From a virus: a DNA stretch of 33,233 nucleotides. The notes below the pieces were generated by a model, which worked only from the letters and a program-made list of their open reading frames with translations, ran no database searches and was not told where the DNA came from. Location of the stretch: the IMG/VR virus record IMGVR_UViG_3300045135_002970, positions 1-33,233 of that record; one strand, 5' to 3'. The stretch's first letter is position 1. Each line of letters begins with the position of its first letter. Below, one piece after another: positions 1,279-16,202 of the stretch. The position numbers and the translations under genes are program-made.

Positions 1279-1872
1279 TTAAAGTGCGACCTTAAAGTAT
1301 GTTCCGAACATTTTTAGACTATCCAATCCCTTTCTAGGACGGAGTTCGAAAAATGGAGCGATGGAATATCCATCTCTATCAAAGGAAAGACCAACTTGGT
1401 TTCTCCAATCATCGGCTTCGAGGGTTGCGTCTTCAAGCTCCCAACGTGGTTGTAGCTTGACCCATAGGTTAACATTGTCTAGAACTGGACGGTCATAGAG
1501 GGCGATCATACGGACACGCCACATATCACTACCGTCATCATCATCACGATCATCAAACATTCTATATTCCATACGAGGCATTAAAGATACCCCAGCGAAT
1601 GATAGTAGATCATACGTAAATTGAACCCTATTTTCTACAAAACCATCTAACTCTGCATATCTGTAAGCAACTTCTAAACGAGGCATAACGTCCATACCAA
1701 ATTGTGCGTGCCAGTAGCTATCTTCTGCCACTCTCAATTGTGTTGTTAGGTCATCTTTATCAACCCCATAGTTGAATTCTTGTGCTTCTACATCGTTACA
1801 ACTAAAAAAGAGCAGGGCTGCAAGTGCTATAGCTGCTCCTAGTAAATATTTTTTATTTAAGTACTTCTCCAT
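1279..1872 (-). CDS. Predicted small outer-membrane beta-barrel protein
   Basis: A 197-aa protein from the ATG at 1872, chosen over an upstream ATG at 1929 because AGGAGT sits just before it. Residues 1-31 form a signal peptide ending VEAQ. An FFSC segment inside it resembles a lipobox, so a lipoprotein cannot be excluded. The mature part is a run of alternating polar and hydrophobic strands rich in aromatic residues and Arg/Asp (for example RLEVAYRYAEL, MWRVRMIALYDRP, YSIAPFFELRPRK), ending YFKVAL, as in small outer-membrane barrels that report on porin-like folds. It is the first gene of a minus-strand operon with the lipoprotein and DUF1552 genes, behind a sigma70-like promoter. Barrel fold is an inference from strand pattern. 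Confidence 0.65.
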   Translation of the reverse strand: MEKYLNKKYLLGAAIALAALLFFSCNDVEAQEFNYGVDKDDLTTQLRVAEDSYWHAQFGMDVMPRLEVAYRYAELDGFVENRVQFTYDLLSFAGVSLMPRMEYRMFDDRDDDDGSDMWRVRMIALYDRPVLDNVNLWVKLQPRWELEDATLEADDWRNQVGLSFDRDGYSIAPFFELRPRKGLDSLKMFGTYFKVAL

Positions 1873-1941
1873 GTTTACTCCTATTTTGTAGTAATATAAT
1901 AGAACGTTTGTTGTTCCCACTAACCCCACATTACTACAACT

Positions 1942-1993: not shown

Positions 1994-2034
1994 GTCTCAC
2001 GGATACTTATAGTTGAATGCTATCTTGGATAATC

Positions 2035-2517
2035 ATGAAATTATTATTATTTTTATTAACGACATTATTTATTTTTCCCCTGTCAATAGAAGCACAAGAG
2101 GTATTTGTAGACAGGGTAGAGAATAGAGTTGTTATCGGAAAATTAGCTGGAAATAGAAATTTATCATTCGGTGTCAGAAATGTTCTTGAAGAATATCTTA
2201 TGGAAGCCGATTATGATTTATTTCCAAATGCTAAAAATAAAATAAATGTTGAGATCGTATTTTTAGATGTTTTGACGACAAGTCGAAACATATCAATTTT
2301 TTCAAAAAGAAGCGATGCTGTTGTAATAAGACTTCGTGGAGTTCTAAAAAGAGATGGTGAGGTTGTTAAAGAAGTGGTAGTAGAAGAATCGTCGGCAGAA
2401 GTATCGATGGCCACTTTGGTAATTGATAATGGGGGCAACTTTAACCAAACTAGTTTGAGTAATGCTTTGAAAAAGGCTTGTGAAAAATTAATTGAAGAAC
2501 TTCACGGAGAATTATGA
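2035..2517 (+). CDS. Small exported protein, possibly CsgG-like domain
   Basis: A 160-aa protein with a signal peptide ending IEAQ (about residue 21). An upstream in-frame ATG at 2017 would add six residues before the same signal and has no better ribosome site, so I chose 2035. The mature part alternates strands and helices. FGVRNVLEEYLMEADYDL, then a strand with VEIVFLDVLTTSRN, a second RLRGVLKRDGEVVKE pair and a final ALKKACEKLIEEL helix recall the domain order of the CsgG-like protein at 5217-5936. The similarity is by pattern, not by motif identity. It is the first gene behind the late promoter, and its stop overlaps the ATG of the next gene. Export confident; fold tentative. Confidence 0.6.
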   Translation: MKLLLFLLTTLFIFPLSIEAQEVFVDRVENRVVIGKLAGNRNLSFGVRNVLEEYLMEADYDLFPNAKNKINVEIVFLDVLTTSRNISIFSKRSDAVVIRLRGVLKRDGEVVKEVVVEESSAEVSMATLVIDNGGNFNQTSLSNALKKACEKLIEELHGEL

Positions 2518-4571
2518 AAAAATTACTTACTCTTTTGACAGGGTTACTATTATTACCTACTGTTGTTGAGGCTCAAAACAATCCAGAATTTTGGTGGGGA
2601 CTTCAAACATATACTCAAGATAAGAACGGTGGACCAATTGAAAAAGGTGACACCGTTTATCTAGAAGTTAAAATTAATCCTAACGGATCTAACATTCGAT
2701 CAACCTATTTTGATTTTCAGCATCAAAAAGATGCTGTTCATTTTCTAGGTGTTGAACGACGAGAAGCCATCCCATCTCAAAACAGTTTTCAGGTACACAA
2801 CTGGTTTTATCCAAATTGTAAATTTAATAGAACCTCTAATAATGTTACAAACGTGGGTTGGACGAATTGGCAGTACGCAAATTATACCTGTAATGCCTCA
2901 GAAGTTCCCTATACAGCAATCAACCGTGTCTATACCAGCGTTGCAGGTAATCAAGATATTACTGATATTGCAACTTACATACGATTGAAATTTGAAATTA
3001 CAAATACAGATGCTGGATTCCCTTACGATTCTGTATATATGAACTTTGCTATTGGGGTTAGTGGTGACCACTTTGGGGGTAATGGATACAGCTGGCTACA
3101 GGGTACAACCAATTCTGGACCCAAGGGAACGTGGATTCAATTAGCATCAACAGAAAACAACTTAATAACCGGACAATTAAAACATAGTGGAAATACTTCT
3201 AGTGATGCTAAAGATAAGATGAGTTTACGAGTGTACAATGCTAGTGATAATCTTGTTCTACAACACGCTATAGGAACTGGTAACGGAAGTTTTTCATTTG
3301 CTGAAGTACTTGACCAAAATTCAGATTATACTTTTAAGTTACACACCAGTGACGTTGACGCATTACTTGGCGAAGCAATCACAATTTCAGATTATACTGC
3401 TGCAGTAACAGAATTTATAAGTCAGAACTTAGATGGTACATATAACAACAATAATATTGACCATGGTATGAAATACTGGGCAGCTGACATAAACAATGAC
3501 AGTACATTTGATGCACCAGATCTACAAGCATTATTTAATCATGTTGTTGGAGTAGATACAATTGATGCAGCTCCTAATGGATACTTGCCGATATTCCCCA
3601 CATCAGAATATGATGGTACAACATTTACATCTTGGAAAAGTATAAAAGAATCGGGTAGAGTATTAGCAACAACCGATGGGGGTCAGGTAGAATGGGTGGT
3701 TCTATATGCATATGACAACACAAATAAAAGATATAGAATTGCATTGGATAGTAGAGAGTTTCCTACAGGGGCTCCGGCGTGGGACGCATTAACTCATTTA
3801 CAATTATTTGATTTATATCAAGGAGCGATTGTTCCCAAATCAACTGGAACAGGAACCGCTTATTGGAATGAATATTGGATTTATACTGATGATCAGATAG
3901 ATTTTAGTGATACTAATTACAATGCTTATATAAGAGATATGGGAAATAGTGAGTACGCATTTAAGGCCGAACTATCTTTTACACAAAGTAATTTACGAGA
4001 AATTCCATTTGTAACCACAACTGCTACACAACAAGTTGCTTGGAACTATGGAATTAAAGGTGATGTTAATTTGTCACACTCATCACCATTAACCACATCC
4101 GGTGTAACTCAACAAGCCCGGCTGGTTCAAACAGACCCAAGTATTGATCTAAATCTAAACAATGTGATTGTTACCTCTGACTCATTAACTATTCCATTTG
4201 AAATAGACAGTAGAAACATCCCCGTATCAGCTCTTCAATTCGAAGTTCAGTACGATCAGACTAAATTAAAATTTGAAGAACTAGACGCAAACACACCAAG
4301 TTGGATAACTTTTGTTAATGATAATGATGGTACATTACGATTTGGGGGATTATCAGAATGGCACACGAACTCAGCAGATCATCTAATCACAGGTCAAGCT
4401 ACACCATTTACACTTAAGTTTAGTTCAATAGGTTCTGGAACGGATCTAAATTCAAATATTTTGTTAACAAGAAATCTTGATGTCGCAGATGGGGGTGGAC
4501 ATCAAATTGGTATGAACATAAACACAAATCTTATTAAATTGATTGGTGTAAACAATTTTACCGGAAATTAA
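2514..4571 (+). CDS. Large secreted protein with dockerin-like and cohesin-like segments
   Basis: A 685-aa protein with a signal peptide ending VEAQ (about residue 20). The N-terminal third is Asn/Trp/Tyr-rich with four Cys-containing turns, typical of extracellular beta domains. About residues 320-345 hold DINNDSTFDAPDLQALFNHV, which matches one calcium-binding dockerin-type repeat (D-x-N-x-D-x-x-x-D plus helix). The last 130 residues (SLTIPFEIDSRNIPVSALQF, then EVQYDQTKLKFEEL and TPFTLKFSSIGSG) look like a cohesin-type beta sandwich. Dockerin and cohesin bind one another, so the protein could self-associate or form a surface polymer. It overlaps the previous stop by 4 bases and is followed at once by a lipoprotein gene. 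Proposed as cargo or partner of the CsgG-like pore; that link is inference. Confidence 0.7.
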   Translation: MKKLLTLLTGLLLLPTVVEAQNNPEFWWGLQTYTQDKNGGPIEKGDTVYLEVKINPNGSNIRSTYFDFQHQKDAVHFLGVERREAIPSQNSFQVHNWFYPNCKFNRTSNNVTNVGWTNWQYANYTCNASEVPYTAINRVYTSVAGNQDITDIATYIRLKFEITNTDAGFPYDSVYMNFAIGVSGDHFGGNGYSWLQGTTNSGPKGTWIQLASTENNLITGQLKHSGNTSSDAKDKMSLRVYNASDNLVLQHAIGTGNGSFSFAEVLDQNSDYTFKLHTSDVDALLGEAITISDYTAAVTEFISQNLDGTYNNNNIDHGMKYWAADINNDSTFDAPDLQALFNHVVGVDTIDAAPNGYLPIFPTSEYDGTTFTSWKSIKESGRVLATTDGGQVEWVVLYAYDNTNKRYRIALDSREFPTGAPAWDALTHLQLFDLYQGAIVPKSTGTGTAYWNEYWIYTDDQIDFSDTNYNAYIRDMGNSEYAFKAELSFTQSNLREIPFVTTTATQQVAWNYGIKGDVNLSHSSPLTTSGVTQQARLVQTDPSIDLNLNNVIVTSDSLTIPFEIDSRNIPVSALQFEVQYDQTKLKFEELDANTPSWITFVNDNDGTLRFGGLSEWHTNSADHLITGQATPFTLKFSSIGSGTDLNSNILLTRNLDVADGGGHQIGMNINTNLIKLIGVNNFTGN

Positions 4572-4574
4572 ATC

Positions 4575-4916
4575 ATGAAAAGAATTTTATTTTGTATTAC
4601 ATTACTAACATTAACATCGTGTAGTTTTACCCCAACAGAACCTCCAATCAAAGAACCTGTTGATTTGGGAGTTCCAGCATTGGAAAATCAAATTAACTTT
4701 AATCCAATTACAAATAAGATCACAGCAACATTAACCCCAGGCGCGGTATATGTATTACAAGCGATTGGTATTGATGGTAATGTAATGGATAGTAAACCAA
4801 TTGAGTTTGGTGACGATATTTCTATTGATGATTTTGATTTAATATTTGGATCATACGATTTACATTTAGTAGACAATCGTGGTCACTTCACAAAAACAAT
4901 ATTACTCGTAAGATAA
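4575..4916 (+). CDS. Predicted lipoprotein
   Basis: A 113-aa protein with signal MKRILFCITLLTLTSC and lipobox LTSC (Cys 16). The mature part starts with a Pro/Thr/Glu linker and then a single small beta-rich domain (ITATLTPGAVYVLQAIGIDG, then DLIFGSYDLHLVDNRGHFTK), perhaps of immunoglobulin-like or carbohydrate-binding type. It starts three bases after the stop of the large secreted protein, so it is in the same operon and may anchor that protein to the membrane. No family recognised. Confidence 0.7.
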   Translation: MKRILFCITLLTLTSCSFTPTEPPIKEPVDLGVPALENQINFNPITNKITATLTPGAVYVLQAIGIDGNVMDSKPIEFGDDISIDDFDLIFGSYDLHLVDNRGHFTKTILLVR

Positions 4917-4926
4917 GGAGAACATC

Positions 4927-5205
4927 ATGTCAGAAGAAGGTGGTAATAGCCTAAAAAATTCAATTATAGGATTAATTACTGTTGTTGTAACAGCTTTAAC
5001 AGGTGTGGTTGCAAATAATTTTTTAGGTGGGGACGACACAGAAGAGGAACCCGCTGCAGCAGTTGCTCCTGTAATTAATTTAAATTTAGAAAATAATAAT
5101 GAAGTTAATAATGATGGTGGACCAGATGTTATTATCATTGAAAGTGACGATGATGATGAAGAAGAAGAACCAGATGCACATCTAAGAGCTAAACCAAAAT
5201 GGTAG
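4927..5205 (+). CDS. Single-TM protein with acidic tail
   Basis: A 92-aa protein with a good ribosome site (AAGGAG). Residues 10-31 form one transmembrane helix (SIIGLITVVVTALTGVVANN). It is followed by an Asp/Glu- and Asn-rich tail including ESDDDDEEEE and a short basic end. There is no cleavable signal. Genes of this shape (short start, one helix, charged tail) are common next to phage envelope genes. Here it sits between a lipoprotein and the CsgG-like gene, so a role in assembling that system is possible. A holin role is not supported by anything beyond size and the helix. Confidence 0.65.
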   Translation: MSEEGGNSLKNSIIGLITVVVTALTGVVANNFLGGDDTEEEPAAAVAPVINLNLENNNEVNNDGGPDVIIIESDDDDEEEEPDAHLRAKPKW

Positions 5206-5216
5206 GAGAATCCATA

Positions 5217-5936
5217 ATGAAAAAATTAATCTTAGCATTATTTTTGTTTCCATCAGTTTTAGTAGCACAAACAATTGGTTCTACTAGAACAGAACAATAT
5301 ACTGCATCATTTGAAACTGGTGGTAATTATGGTGAGTTAATCGGATACGATTATGATGGTCCAACAATTCCAATTCAATTATTAAAAGTTGGTATTGGTC
5401 CAGAACTATATGATTTTTATCCCGAATTAAGAGATAATCGTGTGGGTCTTGGGGTTACTAATATTGTTCTTGAGTTTTTAGATGAAACTTGGCGTTTTAC
5501 ATTTACTGAAGACAAAACAGAAATTAAAAATAGAATGGTGGCTCAATGGGAAGCTAGTGATGCTGGTGTTTCACAAAATCAAGTTAGTGGGTTTGGTCAA
5601 GTTGTATTAGCAAAATATTTTGCATATGTAGAAGTTTATGACTATTCAGTTTCGGAAGACGAAACATTAAACTTATCTGATGGTGTTAAAAATACTGTAG
5701 TGACTCGTCTTGGGTTACAGGTTCGTTTTGTAGATGCGGAAACGGGTCAAATTATTACAGGTTCCGGTCTTGGTACAGGAACAACTGTTCGTGAGTTATC
5801 ATTATTAAATGATGACAATTTAGAAGAAGTTAGATTTAATCAGAGTACAATTGGAATTGCTACTCGCAAGGCTCTTGAGGAAGCTGCTGCCAAAATTGTT
5901 AGAAGAATGATTAGACGAGGTATTTTTGAATCTTAA
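5217..5936 (+). CDS. CsgG-like curli secretion pore protein
   Basis: A 239-aa protein starting at the ATG after TAGGAG; an upstream frame start at 5199 lacks a ribosome site. The signal peptide ends LVAQ (residue 18); no lipobox is seen, unlike E. coli CsgG. CsgG features are the GLGVTNIVLEFLDET segment, the long strand-turn-strand around TRLGLQVRFVDAETGQII, a GSGLGTGTT turn, and a final ATRKALEEAAAKIVRRM helix. CsgG forms a nonameric pore in the outer membrane that exports curli subunits. I recall csgG/csgF-like genes being reported in marine T4-like phages of SAR11. Here the neighbours are all exported proteins, which fits a secretion role for the pore. Family call fairly sure; substrate unknown. 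Confidence 0.75.
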   Translation: MKKLILALFLFPSVLVAQTIGSTRTEQYTASFETGGNYGELIGYDYDGPTIPIQLLKVGIGPELYDFYPELRDNRVGLGVTNIVLEFLDETWRFTFTEDKTEIKNRMVAQWEASDAGVSQNQVSGFGQVVLAKYFAYVEVYDYSVSEDETLNLSDGVKNTVVTRLGLQVRFVDAETGQIITGSGLGTGTTVRELSLLNDDNLEEVRFNQSTIGIATRKALEEAAAKIVRRMIRRGIFES

Positions 5937-5948
5937 TATAGGAGTTTT

Positions 5949-6560
5949 ATGAAAAAGTTATTACTTTTATTTTTAATGGCAACACCTGTACAAGCACAGC
6001 TATTAGAAATTGATAGAGAAGAATATGATATCGTATTTTCCACCGAACTTATGTATCCGTTGTCTGTTAAATGGGAAACTAATCGTGAAGACGTAACGTG
6101 TGAAGATCCCTTGTCACGTAAAGATAGATTTGTTCCAGATCCCCTATATAGAGAGGAAACTAATCTAGCTAAAGATTATGTTGGTTCTGGTTTAGACCGT
6201 GGTCACATTTCCCCTGCCGCCGATAATCTTTGTGACGGTGAAGCTGTTATGTTAGAAAGTTTTTATTTTACAAATATGGCACCACAATATCCTGGCCTTA
6301 ATCGTGGCCAGTGGAAATCATTAGAAGACCACACAAGAAAATTAGCTGAGAATTGGGACACCATTCGAATTGAAGCTGGTTGTGTTGGTGAAGAAAGAAA
6401 AGTAAATAGATTGTCAGTACCAACACATTGTTGGAAAATTATTGAAATTGTCGAAACTGGAGAAATCACTGCATACGTCTTCCCAAATGTTCCCGAAAAA
6501 ACAAGATCGTTTGTTGATCATATTGTTTCATTGGATAGTATTGATGCCCTAAGAAGATAA
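5949..6560 (+). CDS. Secreted DNA/RNA non-specific endonuclease (NUC1 family)
   Basis: A 203-aa protein with a signal peptide ending VQAQ (about residue 17). It has the family's DRGH motif (LDRGHISPAADN, catalytic His) and the metal-binding Asn region FYFTNMAPQYPGLNRGQW. Four or more Cys suggest disulphides and an extracytoplasmic home. This beta-beta-alpha-Me nuclease hydrolyses DNA and RNA without sequence specificity using one magnesium ion. It is short but complete for the family (about 200-240 residues). It stands 12 bases after the CsgG-like stop, with a TAGGAG ribosome site. A secreted nuclease could salvage nucleotides, destroy DNA of incoming phages, or clear released host DNA. Function sure, purpose inferred. 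Confidence 0.9.
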   Translation: MKKLLLLFLMATPVQAQLLEIDREEYDIVFSTELMYPLSVKWETNREDVTCEDPLSRKDRFVPDPLYREETNLAKDYVGSGLDRGHISPAADNLCDGEAVMLESFYFTNMAPQYPGLNRGQWKSLEDHTRKLAENWDTIRIEAGCVGEERKVNRLSVPTHCWKIIEIVETGEITAYVFPNVPEKTRSFVDHIVSLDSIDALRR

Positions 6561-6561
6561 A

Positions 6562-8385
6562 ATGAAAAAGTTTGTATTTGCAACTTCACTTGCAATTTTA
6601 TCTTTACTATTTGTAGATGATCTGAGCGCACAAGTGGTTGTTTCTAATTGGATTGATCCATGTGACAATACAACAAAAACAGTAATTTTCCCGATGGCGA
6701 ATGTAGGAGTTTTAGTTTCTTATCGTGGAATGTCTCGAACGTTTACAGCAGCTGAGGCAAGAGCCGGAGCATTACAAACTTGGATTCAAGAAGTAACTGA
6801 ATATGTCCCGTGTCCCATAGAAAACAATGAAGTTGTAAACCAGACAGCAACCACGGCCGCGACTGACGCGGCGGCCGCCGCAGCGGCTGCTGCAGCGGAG
6901 GCTGCAGCTCAAGCCGCAGCAGAGGAAGCGGCACAAGCGGCTGCTGAAGAGGCGGCTGCCGCAGCAGCTGAGGAGGCTGCGGCTGCAGCAGCGGAGGAAG
7001 CCGCGGCGGCTGCAGCGGAAGAAGCAGCTGCTGCAGCTGCTGAGGAAGCTGCGGCCGCAGCTGCTGAAGAGGCGGCCGCCAGTTCTGCTGGTGGTACAAC
7101 TACTACTACTACCACATCTAGCACAACTACTTCTTCGTCTACCACATCGACTTCTAGTACAACCACTACTAGCACTGGTAGTGAGCAAAATAATACAACC
7201 ACCTCTACTTCCAGCACAACCTCGTCGGGTGACCAAAGTACAACAACATCAAGCGACCAAAGTACAACAAGTAGTGACTCAGGCACTACTTCAGATTCAA
7301 ATTCTACTACTTCTGATTCAGGCACCACTTCGGATTCGTCGGATTCGAGCACTACTTCTGATTCATCTGATTCAAGTACTAGTTCTGATTCTAGTGACTC
7401 CAGTAGTAGTTCCGATTCCAGTGATTCCAGTAGCTCAGACTCCAGTGATTCTAGTGACTCTAGTAGCAGTAGCGAAGAATCTAGTAGTAGTGAGGAGTCC
7501 AGTAGTAGCGAAGAATCTAGCAGTAGTGAAGAGTCAAGCACTGAGGAATCTTCCGAAGAATCAAGTACTGAAGAATCTACAGAAGAAAGTAGTGAAGAAT
7601 CAAGCGAAGAAAGTTCAGACAGTGAAGAAACTGAAGAGTCTGAAGAGAGTAGTGAAGACTCTGAGGAATCGGAGGAGGATTCAGAAGATTCAGAAGATTC
7701 AGAAGAAGACGAAGAGGAATCTGAGGAAGAGGAAAGTGCCGGTAATCCATTACTTGTTGCCGCTAACTTAACCTTTGGTCAAAGTCCCGATGGTGGGTTT
7801 TCTTCTGTAACGACAATTGGTGCGTCTAGAGCTTCTATGATGGGTGATGTGAGTTATGGTGCTACTGGAGTTATATGGAGCACCCTAGATCAGTTTGCTC
7901 TTTCTACAGCATATTCGAAAACAGGTTTTGTGGGTGGAGAGTTGTGGAATGTAAGAAACTTTTCTGCTACAACCGCTTATCTAAACGGAAACTGGTTGGG
8001 TATGCTTGGGTATACAGAGGTTTTACCAGATGTAAGTGGTGGTGTCTGGGGAATGAGCAATAGTGTGTTGTCACTGTTTATGAATGGTGAGGAAGGGTGG
8101 CAACGATCATATAGTATGTCTTCTATTTTATTTTATATGCCCCCACCATTTGCAGTGGGTGAAAGAATGATGTTAAGTCCACAATTATTTTTTATCGGTG
8201 CACCATACAGTTATACTAGTATAACAGGACTCGTAGTCAATACCAATATAAACTATATGGTAGGTACGGGATTCTCATATATGTTTACGAGAAGATTCGG
8301 TCTTCAAGGAGCATATAGAGCTATGATTGCTAGTGAGACTCCGATATTAAATTTCCTAATGATTGGGACTTCTGTTACCTTTTAG
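6562..8385 (+). CDS. Giant low-complexity outer-membrane protein (helical rod, Ser/Asp stalk, beta-barrel)
   Basis: A 607-aa protein. A signal peptide ends LSAQ (about residue 24). Residues 25-95 form a small domain with two Cys (IDPCDN, VPCPIE). Residues about 102-174 are an Ala/Glu helix built from the octad EEAAAAAA repeated five times. Residues about 178-391 go from Thr/Ser to Ser/Asp to Ser/Glu low complexity. The last 215 residues are strands with aromatic girdles and end in SVTF, a terminal Phe as in outer-membrane barrels. The order suggests an N-terminal tip on a helical rod and acidic stalk, anchored by a C-terminal barrel, as in autotransporter-like adhesins. It starts one base after the nuclease stop. 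Its last 30 bases overlap the convergent protease gene. No family recognised for the barrel. Confidence 0.8.
   Translation: MKKFVFATSLAILSLLFVDDLSAQVVVSNWIDPCDNTTKTVIFPMANVGVLVSYRGMSRTFTAAEARAGALQTWIQEVTEYVPCPIENNEVVNQTATTAATDAAAAAAAAAAEAAAQAAAEEAAQAAAEEAAAAAAEEAAAAAAEEAAAAAAEEAAAAAAEEAAAAAAEEAAASSAGGTTTTTTTSSTTTSSSTTSTSSTTTTSTGSEQNNTTTSTSSTTSSGDQSTTTSSDQSTTSSDSGTTSDSNSTTSDSGTTSDSSDSSTTSDSSDSSTSSDSSDSSSSSDSSDSSSSDSSDSSDSSSSSEESSSSEESSSSEESSSSEESSTEESSEESSTEESTEESSEESSEESSDSEETEESEESSEDSEESEEDSEDSEDSEEDEEESEEEESAGNPLLVAANLTFGQSPDGGFSSVTTIGASRASMMGDVSYGATGVIWSTLDQFALSTAYSKTGFVGGELWNVRNFSATTAYLNGNWLGMLGYTEVLPDVSGGVWGMSNSVLSLFMNGEEGWQRSYSMSSILFYMPPPFAVGERMMLSPQLFFIGAPYSYTSITGLVVNTNINYMVGTGFSYMFTRRFGLQGAYRAMIASETPILNFLMIGTSVTF
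6868..7083 (+). repeat. Ala/Glu octad repeat with shuffled codons
   Basis: Encodes five back-to-back EEAAAAAA units plus degenerate flanking units. The protein units are identical but the Ala and Glu codons differ in each copy, and the stretch is far richer in G+C than the rest of the window. Confidence 0.85.
7095..7736 (+). repeat. Ser/Thr to Ser/Asp to Ser/Glu low-complexity tract
   Basis: About 210 codons of Ser/Thr, then Ser-Asp-Ser, then Ser-Ser-Glu-Glu repeats. Net charge becomes steadily more negative toward the barrel. It resembles Ser-Asp stalks of surface adhesins and probably forms an extended disordered spacer. Confidence 0.85.
7399..7471 (+). repeat. Donor copy of the Ser-Asp repeat shared with 8708-8792
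   Basis: This stretch recurs as a direct repeat 1309 bases downstream with one substitution (7438 g to 8747 a) and a 12-base tandem insertion in the second copy. Here it is read in sense as Ser-Asp repeats. Confidence 0.85.
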
Positions 8386-9081: not shown

Positions 9082-9591
9082 TTAATATTTCACTATAGTT
9101 TCGTGGTTCCAATCAAACCACTTTAAAATATGATTTTGTGATTGGTACACATTGGTCAAAATGTGATTTTTAATTTCCAGAATATCGGGAGCTACTGGAT
9201 TGTCTGTATCTCTATCAAATACCCATAGTTTTTCAGGACACAATCTAGCTAAAACATTATGTAAATTAACATGACGATAATGACCATATTCACCAGACTG
9301 ATTGTGAGTTACGATCTTTGTCCATGTTCGTTCTTCTAATACCCTAGTAATCAAAGGAATTAAAATAGATTCATTATATGCAGCCGAAGACTTGAATGGT
9401 TCACCGTCCCAATGTTCCCATTTTTGAATACCGATGGTTTCCATCGCTTTTATAAATTCTCTATGTCTAATTAAATGATTGCCATAATCTAATGCTACAA
9501 CTTTATATTCTTTATAATTCTGTATTAGTTCTGCTCCACCAAACAACACCTCGTCGTCTGGGTGTGCGACAATCATAAGTTTATTAATCAC
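9082..9591 (-). CDS. PIG-L/LmbE-family zinc deacetylase
   Basis: A 169-aa protein with the family's AHPDDE motif at residues 9-14 (zinc-binding His10 and Asp13, catalytic Asp12) and a second zinc region HNQSGEYGHYRHVNLH (about residues 104-119). PIG-L/LmbE enzymes remove the N-acetyl group from N-acetylglucosamine-containing compounds or related amides. It is shorter than many family members (220 or more) but both metal motifs are present. Its start overlaps the end of nagB by eight bases, so the two are one transcript. Together they could turn an N-acetylated amino sugar into fructose-6-phosphate and ammonia; which substrate it deacetylates is unknown. Confidence 0.85.
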   Translation of the reverse strand: MINKLMIVAHPDDEVLFGGAELIQNYKEYKVVALDYGNHLIRHREFIKAMETIGIQKWEHWDGEPFKSSAAYNESILIPLITRVLEERTWTKIVTHNQSGEYGHYRHVNLHNVLARLCPEKLWVFDRDTDNPVAPDILEIKNHILTNVYQSQNHILKWFDWNHETIVKY

Positions 9592-10267
9592 AATAAAATA
9601 CTCTTACATTTTCATGTTCTTTTAATATAGAAGCTGGTACATCGGGGGTCGTTTTTCCCCATATAGCTTTTACGAGAGCATCACGTTTGTGTTCACCGTG
9701 TACCATCATAATTATTTCTTTTGAACTCATAATAGTTTTTAATCCCATTGTAATTGCTTGAGTGGGAACATCATCAATAGAATCAAAAAATCTACTATTA
9801 TCTTTTATGGTTTGTTGGGTTAAGTTTACAATTCTTGTTGTTGAATTAAATGGTGTGGATGGTTCATTAAAAGCAATATGACCATTAGAACCTAGTCCTA
9901 GTATTGTTAAATCCAACCCACCAGCTTTTTGAATTTCATCGTCATAATTTAAATTTGGAAATCTAATATTTTCTTCTTTGATATCAGTGTACATATGTAA
10001 ACGACGCCACATAAAATTTGTATAACTTTCTGGATGATCTGGGTCTATGTCAATATATTCATCTAAATTAAATGTTGTGACCGCTGACCAAGTTAGATTT
10101 CTCTCAACCAAAGATTTATACATTCCAATGGGAGTTCCACCCGTGGGTAGTCCAAGTTTTATGTGTGGTAAGTTATGGGTGCCCGGTATAGGAGCAATTA
10201 GGTCTTCAATAATATCAGCCACCATGACCGACATTGTGGAATAATCTGTAATATAATTTATAATCAT
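9584..10267 (-). CDS. nagB: Glucosamine-6-phosphate deaminase
   Basis: About 227 aa. NagB turns glucosamine-6-phosphate into fructose-6-phosphate and ammonia. Visible motifs are GLPTGGTP (phosphate loop), FNLDEY (catalytic Asp), GLGSNGHIAFNEP (catalytic His and lid) and ITMGLKTIMSS. It is shorter than E. coli NagB (266), lacking the C-terminal part linked to allosteric GlcNAc-6-P control, as in some Gram-positive enzymes. I chose the ATG at 10267 because it forms an ATGA overlap with the DUF2452 gene; an in-frame ATG at 10279 would add four residues. It is followed by the overlapping PIG-L deacetylase gene. NagB is a rare phage metabolic gene. Confidence 0.92.
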   Translation of the reverse strand: MIINYITDYSTMSVMVADIIEDLIAPIPGTHNLPHIKLGLPTGGTPIGMYKSLVERNLTWSAVTTFNLDEYIDIDPDHPESYTNFMWRRLHMYTDIKEENIRFPNLNYDDEIQKAGGLDLTILGLGSNGHIAFNEPSTPFNSTTRIVNLTQQTIKDNSRFFDSIDDVPTQAITMGLKTIMSSKEIIMMVHGEHKRDALVKAIWGKTTPDVPASILKEHENVRVFYCD

Positions 10268-10647
10268 TTCTTTAACCATGAATGTTCTGGTGTTAATTTA
10301 AATGAACCCACATATCCTTTCCATCCTGTGTCTTCGTAGGATAGTAAGGAAAGAAAATGAGTTCCGTTTTCTCGTTGATAGAGGTGATATGTTTTCCCTA
10401 TCCTTGGTTTAAAATTAATTTCCGCCTCGTATACTGCTTTATTCCAATGATATTCCTTGACCAATGCTTCCCAATCGTCTTTGAGTCGGTCATACTTTTC
10501 TTTGAAGTAATGACCAAAGGTAGGTTCTACGGTTTTTATCCATCCCTTAATGTCCTCAGGCGTAATGCTAGCTGGACTATTAGGGGTTCTACCATATGAG
10601 AGAGCGTTATCCCTCTTACCATCTTCTATAGGTTTTGGTAATGTCAT
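10264..10647 (-). CDS. DUF2452 family protein
   Basis: A 127-aa protein with a strong GGAGG ribosome site. The pattern NALSYGRTPNSPAS, then KEYHWNKAVYEAEINFKP, IGKTYHLYQRENGTHFLSLL and a final VGSFKL-type strand fits DUF2452, a domain of unknown function found in marine bacteria, eukaryotes and T4-like marine phages. Its stop overlaps the nagB start. It heads the three-gene minus-strand set with nagB and the deacetylase, just downstream of two tRNAs. No catalytic residue can be assigned. Confidence 0.7.
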   Translation of the reverse strand: MTLPKPIEDGKRDNALSYGRTPNSPASITPEDIKGWIKTVEPTFGHYFKEKYDRLKDDWEALVKEYHWNKAVYEAEINFKPRIGKTYHLYQRENGTHFLSLLSYEDTGWKGYVGSFKLTPEHSWLKK

Positions 10648-14524: not shown

Positions 14525-14854
14525 TGGAGACGGCGGGATTTGCACCCGCGTCCGAACTTAACTACCCAAATCACTATCAACGCTGTAGGACAGTTAGGAG
14601 TACCAAGGTGTCCAACCTCACGGCTTTGTAACGTCTATGCCGATCACGAAATACATTCTTTGGTGTATATATCCGTACTTAGCTCTATTCCTAAGAGTCA
14701 CCCGAAGTCATTTACTTCCCGTGTTTATCCTATCGGTATCAGATAGTGGGAAGGGCTTAAGCGGCCATTAGTAAAGGTTCGTCAGTTACTTTTAAAGTAT
14801 CAAACTAGCGTATCAATTTAGTATCACTAAACCCGTCGAATCTAAATCGTCCCC
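14525..14854 (-). ncRNA. ssrA: One-piece tmRNA
   Basis: On the minus strand the 5' end reads GGGGACGATTTAGATTCGAC, the canonical tmRNA start, and the 3' end carries a T-arm (GCGGGTGCAAATCCCGC) and CGTCTCCA. The acceptor GGGGACG pairs with CGTCTCC over seven pairs (one G-U). The message part is probably GTA ACT GAC GAA CCT TTA CTA ATG GCC GCT TAA (14789-14757), giving a tag ending TDEPLLMAA, with the expected Ala-Ala end for ClpXP. tmRNA with SmpB frees stalled ribosomes and tags the protein for proteolysis. It lies within the tRNA array. The resume codon is my inference; CCA is not encoded. Confidence 0.92.
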
Positions 14855-14865
14855 GTATATGAGGA

Positions 14866-15000
14866 GTGGTGAAAGATTCTCCGTCCCGTCCGTTTCCAGC
14901 CATGGCGGACTTTTCCCACGCGGATTCGAACCGCACAGTCCATTGGAACATATCGCTGGGGAGAACTTTCGGCCAGTGACGCGGCACTGACTTTTACCAC
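14866..15000 (-). ncRNA. Structured RNA D with T-arm-like hairpin
   Basis: A 135-base unit just upstream (in the transcript) of the tmRNA. GTGGTAAAAG pairs with CTTTCACCAC (14991-15000 with 14866-14875) apart from one mismatch and closes it. Inside are CAGTG/CACTG, TTCTCC/GGAGAA, GTCCG/CGGAC and a GCGG-TTCGAAT-CCGC hairpin identical to a tRNA T-arm (around 14919-14933). No D-arm or anticodon arm can be drawn, so it is not an ordinary tRNA. Confidence 0.55.
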
Positions 15001-15071: not shown

Positions 15072-16202
15072 TTAATCTATGTATGGCCAATCGGGATCTA
15101 TATAAATTAATTGTTCGCGATCTTGGCCAACACCAACCATTGACACCACACAACCTGTTTCATTGGAAATGTAAGACACATAATCTTTTAGTTCTTGTGG
15201 TAGATCACTCCAAGTCTTTTCATCGCCTGTGAGTTTCCAAGATGGGAATTGAATCCATCCGTTGTTAGGATCGTCTGAATCATCACGATCTTTGATATAA
15301 ACAAATTGTAAGCAAGACAACACATCCAACTTGGTGATCGCCAGATTTGTAATACCATTGACCTCACAAGCATATCGTAGTTGGTCCATATCCAACCAAC
15401 CTATTCTACGAGGTCGTCCTGTGGTTGCTCCATATTCACCACCAGCTTCTCTTAACATTTCAGTTAGATATTCATCTTCAAATTCAGTTGGGAATGGACC
15501 AGTACCAATTCTGGTTGTATATGCTTTGACCACACCAACAACAGAACTATCACTAAACATATTAAGTGGTAATCCCGTTCCTTGTGGTGCGTAATTTGCT
15601 GTACATGGTGATGAGGTTACGTATGGATAGGTTCCAAAATCAATATCAAGCATGACTGCTTGTGCGCCCTCCATGAGTATTTTTTCATTATTTCGTTTCG
15701 CATCCCGTAACAACGCACGTGTATCAGTCAGAAATGGTGCTAATTTACTATAAGCAACATCGTTGACAATTGTTCCTAAACGAATACCTTGTCGATCATA
15801 CTTGTCTCTGTATGCTGGACCAATTCCTTTTCCTGTGGAACCCCACTTCTTTTTGTTTTCTTCGTCTTGAAGTAAATGACTACGAGTAACAACGCTAGCG
15901 TCTTTGGAGATAAAAAGTCGGTCAGTAAAATTAACACCCATATCTTCTAACGCTTCAATCTCCTTAATAAGTTCTTCGGGATTTACTACACATCCATGTG
16001 TAATTACGGACTTACAATTCTTACGGATAACGCCGGTGGGTAGCGAGTGTGTAATATACTTTTTATTATCTACACATACGGTATGACCAGCATTACTACC
16101 ACCTTGGTAGCGTACAACCCAATCATAATCATCACTCATATAATCGGTAATCTTACCCTTGCCTTCATCACCCCACTGAAGTCCTACAACAATATCAATC
16201 AT
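15072..16202 (-). CDS. purA: Adenylosuccinate synthetase
   Basis: A 376-aa protein. PurA joins IMP and aspartate using GTP, the first step from IMP to AMP. The P-loop is QWGDEGKGK (residues 9-17) with catalytic Asp12, and GGSNAGHT (34-41) carries catalytic His40. Later motifs include STGKGIGPAYRDK, ATTGRPRRIGWLD and TKLDVLS. It is shorter than E. coli PurA (432). The Asp12 that phage PurZ enzymes (diaminopurine genomes) replace is kept, so this is PurA rather than PurZ. The start overlaps the upstream small gene by eight bases. With the IMP dehydrogenase at 26771-27892 the phage owns both branches from IMP. Confidence 0.95.
   Translation of the reverse strand: MIDIVVGLQWGDEGKGKITDYMSDDYDWVVRYQGGSNAGHTVCVDNKKYITHSLPTGVIRKNCKSVITHGCVVNPEELIKEIEALEDMGVNFTDRLFISKDASVVTRSHLLQDEENKKKWGSTGKGIGPAYRDKYDRQGIRLGTIVNDVAYSKLAPFLTDTRALLRDAKRNNEKILMEGAQAVMLDIDFGTYPYVTSSPCTANYAPQGTGLPLNMFSDSSVVGVVKAYTTRIGTGPFPTEFEDEYLTEMLREAGGEYGATTGRPRRIGWLDMDQLRYACEVNGITNLAITKLDVLSCLQFVYIKDRDDSDDPNNGWIQFPSWKLTGDEKTWSDLPQELKDYVSYISNETGCVVSMVGVGQDREQLIYIDPDWPYID

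Follow-up and report, generated by a model that had tools for sequence, protein, structure and literature searches.

A conserved operon in a large phage genome

The window analyzed here, which is the whole stretch of DNA, is an entire IMG/VR virus record of 33,233 bases; as the record is linear, the window is probably a fragment. A tight operon lies on one strand at positions 2017-8385 and recurs in about 80 viral loci. Its genes are as follows:

2017..2517 (+), exported 166-aa protein, the first gene of the operon
2514..4571 (+), cohesin-dockerin scaffold protein of 685 aa
4575..4916 (+), small lipoprotein with lipobox LTSC and a beta domain resembling a type IX secretion system (T9SS) sorting domain, directly after the scaffold gene
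4927..5205 (+), single-pass membrane protein of 92 aa, a conserved member of the cassette
5199..5936 (+), exported CsgG-fold protein without a lipobox cysteine
5949..6560 (+), exported non-specific DNA/RNA endonuclease (PF01223) with a signal peptide, a cassette accessory
6562..8385 (+), exported protein with a small Cys-containing N-domain, a long linker and a C-terminal outer-membrane-barrel-like domain

A search with the protein encoded at 5199-5936 returned 472 related viral contigs, and the best 80 of the 472 were taken for locus comparison. Many of these 80 loci are near-duplicates, and clustering at 80% left 39 distinct scaffold-family proteins. Among the 80 loci, which carry the CsgG-fold gene, the scaffold gene was found in 79, the gene for the 166-aa protein in 77, and those for the 92-aa and barrel proteins in 78 each. 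The cassette is collinear in these loci and its first two genes usually abut or overlap, as they do (by overlapping) in the window. The 166-aa protein bears a weak likeness to the C-terminal half of CsgG; we considered it as a candidate CsgE and rejected this, as alignment to E. coli CsgE using hhalign gave nothing meaningful. The 92-aa membrane protein has no signal peptide, and some of its homologs have Asn/Gln-rich tails. For the barrel protein, the linker of which is of low complexity and rich in Ala/Glu and Ser/Thr, only weak OMP_b-brl matches were obtained, and a PDB profile search returned no match.

The genome is that of a large phage whose Gram-negative host probably belongs to the Bacteroidota. 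PHROG matches identify genes for a baseplate wedge protein and a PurZ-like adenylosuccinate synthetase, and the window encodes 14 tRNAs and one tmRNA. Cultured phages encode relatives of the baseplate protein, the closest being that of Flavobacterium phage immuto (37% identity). The PurZ-like 2-aminoadenylosuccinate synthetase (PHROG 1211; 15072-16202, minus strand) hints at modified adenine in the phage DNA. The tmRNA (14525-14897, minus strand; tag DEPLLMAA) adjoins the tRNA genes, amid which there is also a glucosamine-6-phosphate isomerase-like gene (9584-10279, minus strand). Upstream of the operon, a DUF1552 (HXXSHH) protein with a Tat-like signal, which is unusual for a phage, is encoded at 3-764 on the minus strand, the first kilobase of the window has a raised GC content (0.44), and an exported protein of barrel-like sequence (1279-1929, minus strand) was not found in the related loci. 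Scans for promoters and terminators gave results at chance level.

A tail-sheath gene was detected in 15 of the 24 records tested, which indicates that the carriers of the cassette are tailed phages with contractile tails. Among 295 sampled Bacteroidia genomes, relatives of the cassette or of the CsgG-fold protein occurred on a single metagenome-assembled genome (MAG) contig, so that, as far as sampled, the family belongs almost entirely to phages. On the basis of this survey and of a scan of genome contigs, which was pattern-based such that distant relatives can escape it, we rejected a bacterial origin for the cassette. The one exception (L136, CAIWBA010000291.1) is a 254-kb Bacteroidetes MAG contig carrying the cassette and a T9SS-tailed frame of 669 aa; it is probably a phage binned into the MAG, and no tail-sheath match was found in that genome.

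The scaffold protein carries a dockerin and a cohesin on one chain

The 685-aa protein is divided as follows:

2514..2576 (+), Sec-type signal peptide, residues 1-21, ending ...VEAQ, recognized from sequence
2577..3158 (+), N-terminal beta domain, residues 22-215; Cys102 and Cys126 are invariant within the close clade
3159..3368 (+), small beta domain, residues 216-285, predicted from sequence and position
3369..3563 (+), dockerin module, residues 286-350, identified by profile and loop conservation
3486..3521 (+), putative calcium-binding loop DINNDSTFDAPD, residues 325-336
3648..3998 (+), insert at about residues 379-495, missing from many relatives and of low model confidence
4059..4085 (+), GDVNLSHSS motif, residues 516-524, also present at the C-terminus of lectin-dockerin proteins
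4134..4559 (+), cohesin domain, residues 541-682, identified by Pfam and fold comparison

Direct scans with this protein alone as the query gave no relatives, and none of the scaffold, lectin and CsgG-like proteins has a family in PHROGs. An AlphaFold2 model built from 35 phage homologs has a mean pLDDT of 69.5; the domains at both ends are well predicted and the insert, here at about residues 379-492, poorly so. The cohesin region matches PF00963 over residues 556-671 (E = 5.5e-6; 27.1 bits against a cut-off of 24.1), and residues 541-680 are modeled with a pLDDT of mostly 79-89. When the modeled C-terminal domain is compared with cohesins in the PDB, the best Foldseek match has E = 5.5e-9, and alignment to 6kge_A gives a VIA-align Z of 15.8 with an rmsd of 2.3 over 132 aligned residues. 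As modeled, residues 541-682 are thus a true cohesin fold. An hhalign comparison (E = 0.13) did not bear out the N-terminal domain as a second cohesin, although a weak cohesin match of immuto gp014, which may correspond to this half, leaves it possibly cohesin-like. The small beta domain that follows it is probably of the prealbumin/carboxypeptidase-regulatory kind.

For the dockerin, the loop D325-x-N327-x-D329-x-x-F332-D333-x-x-D336 has the canonical dockerin/EF-hand pattern, and residues 325-346 show the succession D-x-N/D-x-D/N-x-x-x-D-x-x-D followed by a helix that characterizes Dockerin type I, the helix spanning residues 334-344 in the model. Conservation is high: all 35 relatives keep D336 and G346, aspartate occupies positions 325 and 333 in 32 of the 35, and the loop is conserved in phages with and without a lectin gene alike. 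Dockerin type I modules also have two complete calcium-binding repeats, and the window dockerin does not, as its first repeat is truncated to 'ITISD' and a helix, with the second half kept, leaving only the second loop complete. Pfam does not detect a dockerin (PF00404) in the window protein alone, and the matches of family members, where shown, fall below the curated cut-off (best E 0.0022). A profile of the region built from 26 phage proteins (A9), by contrast with the single sequence, retrieves solved dockerins, among them 8ajy_B (1.7e-7), 3ul4_B (3.3e-6) and 1ohz_B (8e-4). Given the matched cohesin fold, the conserved dockerin loop and this retrieval of solved dockerins, we regard both modules as real.

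An earlier note on this DNA, which rightly took it to be from a phage, had proposed that the protein is secreted and bears both modules on one chain. These proposals hold: the export signal is a Sec-type signal peptide, the cohesin beta sandwich appears in the predicted structure, as does the helix that follows the canonical calcium loop of the dockerin, and the limits originally given to the modules (310-350 and 550-685) were nearly correct and are refined here to about 286-350 and 541-682.

A sorting tail and a lipoprotein alternate

It is apparent from the locus comparison that related scaffolds fall into two types. The scaffold has a C-terminal T9SS sorting domain in 61 loci, and the tail is absent and the small lipoprotein present in 18 loci including the window (19 if a duplicate of the window, L001, is counted). 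Fused tail and lipoprotein occur together in none, and the single locus with neither ends at a contig edge. PF18962 was found on 11 of 27 related scaffold proteins (best 1.6e-10) and TIGR04183 scored above its cut-off in one related locus (L011) and in the immuto protein gp015. Each of 14 virus records has exactly one T9SS-tailed protein, which is the scaffold; in the window record no such sorting domain was found, on the scaffold or elsewhere.

The lipoprotein appears to stand in for the tail. Alignment of a lipoprotein profile to a tail profile gave an hhalign probability of 94.5 (E = 7.7e-8), and five of 13 lipoproteins match PF18962 directly. Common descent of the two is likely on these profile comparisons and falls short of proven, because beta sandwiches of this fold are widespread. 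In Bacteroidota, acidic residues shortly behind the lipoprotein cysteine signal export to the surface; the lipoproteins of most relatives have them, and that of the window does not. The fused T9SS tail and the separate lipidated tail-like domain amount to a natural experiment on the function of the tail.

The CsgG-fold protein is at most a candidate pore

The protein encoded at 5199-5936 was modeled with a pLDDT of 64, and the model retrieved CsgG structures at ranks 1-19 of a Foldseek search (best E = 1.3e-7). VIA Z scores are 10.2-10.7 against CsgG and 11.3 against the shorter Cj1090c, and lipoproteins of the LptE/PelC type match almost as well as CsgG. Comparison with E. coli CsgG by hhalign gave E = 0.16, and membership of the CsgG family by sequence was rejected, as PF03783 was found in none of 13 members at E up to 1. 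The 13 aligned members also have no lipobox cysteine, their signal peptides ending in AQ. The region where two transmembrane beta hairpins would form a pore is partly of low model confidence, and its hydropathy points neither toward nor away from a membrane span. We describe this protein as having a predicted CsgG fold and as a candidate pore at most.

The earlier note had called this neighbor CsgG-like, with which the model agrees, and had suggested the scaffold as a possible cargo of the pore. The latter idea fares poorly: in 61 related loci the scaffold has a T9SS sorting domain instead, the CsgG-like protein lacks a lipobox cysteine and resembles LptE/PelC, and no curlin-like subunit was seen. 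Since the CsgG-like gene is found whether or not the scaffold has a T9SS tail, its product is not just a substitute export route for the scaffold.

Candidate lectin partners and a cultured relative

In most of the tail-bearing phages, the gene next after the barrel gene encodes a lectin-dockerin protein, composed of a C-type lectin, a small beta domain and a dockerin, ending in GDVNLSHSS or a variant of it and lacking a cohesin. Records of this type have two strong dockerins, one on the lectin and one on the scaffold. A third group of phages has lectin or PA14 domains fused with both a dockerin and a cohesin. No lectin was found in the clade of the window, where the only strong dockerin in the records is that of the scaffold. 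We considered whether a diversity-generating retroelement acts on the lectin and rejected this, as reverse transcriptase is absent in 13 records.

The only known cultured relative is Flavobacterium phage vB_FspM_immuto (NC_055915; host Flavobacterium sp. LMO8), in which gp012-gp019 form a homologous cassette. There, gp013 combines a lectin with a dockerin loop, gp015 comprises a cohesin and a T9SS tail, gp016 is a membrane protein, gp017 has the CsgG fold, gp018 is the barrel protein and gp019 is a protein of 151 aa. Weak matches of gp014 to the N-domain (E = 0.0064), the dockerin profile (E = 0.007) and cohesin (E = 0.005) suggest that it may be the counterpart of the N-terminal half of the scaffold. 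Compared with the window, immuto thus has its scaffold split into two genes (gp014 and gp015) and a separate lectin-dockerin protein; its record is annotated merely as 'cohesin domain-containing' and 'lectin C-type'. A cohesin with a sorting tail adjoining a dockerin-bearing lectin is an anchor-and-cargo layout, and it is the strongest support for the model that follows.

A proposed scaffold for surface display on infected cells

We suggest that the phage encodes a system for display on the cell surface, made during infection of a Gram-negative host, and that the 685-aa protein is its scaffold; this reading, we think, could equally well prove right or wrong. What is observed is the domain content, the order of the genes, the signal peptides, the alternation of tail and lipoprotein and, in a cultured phage, the split form. 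In the model, the Sec pathway would export the scaffold on its way to the outer surface, to which the fused T9SS tail would bring it in most relatives, as expected from the known role of such tails; in the clade of the window, the separate lipoprotein with its tail-like domain would probably anchor it instead. At the surface, calcium-dependent dockerin-cohesin contacts may link scaffold chains together and, where a lectin is encoded, join the dockerin-bearing C-type lectin to the scaffold. The outcome could be a sticky, sugar-binding or self-associating layer that alters aggregation, attachment or the entry of other phages, and the phage might gain from clumping of infected and uninfected cells, from binding to particles or from keeping other phages out. 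Against this model, not every dockerin-like module of Bacteroidota is known to bind cohesins, the surface location is predicted from sequence signals of which the window lipoprotein lacks the acidic residues, and the window phage shows neither a lectin partner nor a fused T9SS tail.

A wider form of this idea, in which a widespread lineage of large Bacteroidota phages carries an 'adhesome' (a scaffold delivered to the cell surface through the T9SS of the host or by a detached lipidated domain resembling a sorting tail, together with dockerin-bearing lectins) that renders infected cells sticky and sugar-binding, we put forward more tentatively, and would not count on it. If the display model is true, a conserved phage operon that draws on cohesin-dockerin pairing, the T9SS of the host and lectins would imply that large phages remodel the exterior of the cells they infect, and immuto, growing on Flavobacterium sp. 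LMO8, is a cultured carrier that makes the model testable.

Other readings of the same architecture can be weighed against these observations. The dockerin could insert into the cohesin of the next chain, giving a head-to-tail homopolymer and hence a fibre at the surface of the infected cell or beyond it, formed independently of CsgG export. The clade of the window, with one dockerin and one cohesin per chain, suits this arrangement, as do three long records (G001, G003 and G004) in which the scaffold alone has a strong dockerin and a second cohesin was not found, and the loop is conserved regardless of whether a lectin is present. However, the chain is split in immuto, pairing within one molecule is equally possible, and the lectin phages have a second, different dockerin that would compete; this second dockerin, on the lectin of other clades, favors a cargo-bearing scaffold over a simple homopolymer, and we regard the latter as unlikely.

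It is also improbable, in our estimation, that scaffold, lectin and exported nuclease form a superinfection-exclusion coat that masks the receptor and destroys the DNA of competitors. An endonuclease with a signal peptide does lie in or near the cassette in 13 of the 80 loci, and in immuto a non-specific nuclease (gp012) adjoins the cassette, but most loci have no nuclease nearby, and masking of a receptor needs neither a lectin nor a cohesin-dockerin architecture.

Could the dockerin and cohesin be structural spacers or an intramolecular clasp, with no function in assembly? The truncation of the first dockerin repeat and the position of the window dockerin below Pfam detection would fit such a role, yet the second loop has kept its calcium ligands almost unchanged, immuto keeps the cohesin and sorting tail as a standalone gene, and the lectin proteins have this dockerin-GDVNLSHSS module at their C-terminus with no cohesin present, all of which leaves this explanation quite doubtful. 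Finally, phage virions are known to bear lectin and Ig-like domains, but a virion fibre or adhesin is highly improbable here, as family members start with signal peptides, some are T9SS-tailed, and the cassette is distant from the tail genes in both the window and immuto.

Comparison with known systems

We found no description of the cassette in the literature searched, which included few subscription papers and no preprints. Cellulosomes, as well as other surface proteins of bacteria and archaea, are known to use cohesin-dockerin assembly. The phage scaffold resembles cellulosomal scaffolds (type I cohesins, CipA and the anchoring protein OlpA) in the cohesin fold (Z about 15), in the calcium loop of the dockerin and in having the cohesin on a surface-directed chain beside dockerin-bearing partners. 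Unlike cellulosomes, it is encoded in a phage genome where cellulases are absent, the partner is a lectin, the first dockerin repeat is truncated, a T9SS tail or lipoprotein replaces S-layer anchoring, and the dockerin-cohesin binding is putative.

Phage-encoded proteins with T9SS sorting domains have precedents in the T9SS cargo of Cryophage (PMC7468147) and the T9SS-tailed ORFs of crAss-like phages (PMC6949934). Those proteins are an endoglucanase, a GH39 protein, a PA14 protein or ORFs with BACON domains, and neither dockerins nor a cohesin-dockerin cassette are described in the two papers.

A parallel for a CsgG-type gene within a multi-gene exported phage cassette is provided by the curli (type VIII secretion) modules of pelagiphages (PMC7029224, PMC9599517) and of the methylophage Melnitz (PMC9004378), for which 'sibling capture', the aggregation of infected cells, has been proposed (PMC7029224, PMC9599517, PMC9004378). 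The words cohesin and dockerin are absent from these three papers. The modules described there comprise CsgG and CsgF, plus CsgA/B in PMC9599517, whereas the cassette of the window has a CsgG-like protein without a Pfam match or lipobox, and its family combines this protein with cohesin, dockerin, T9SS-tail and lectin modules.
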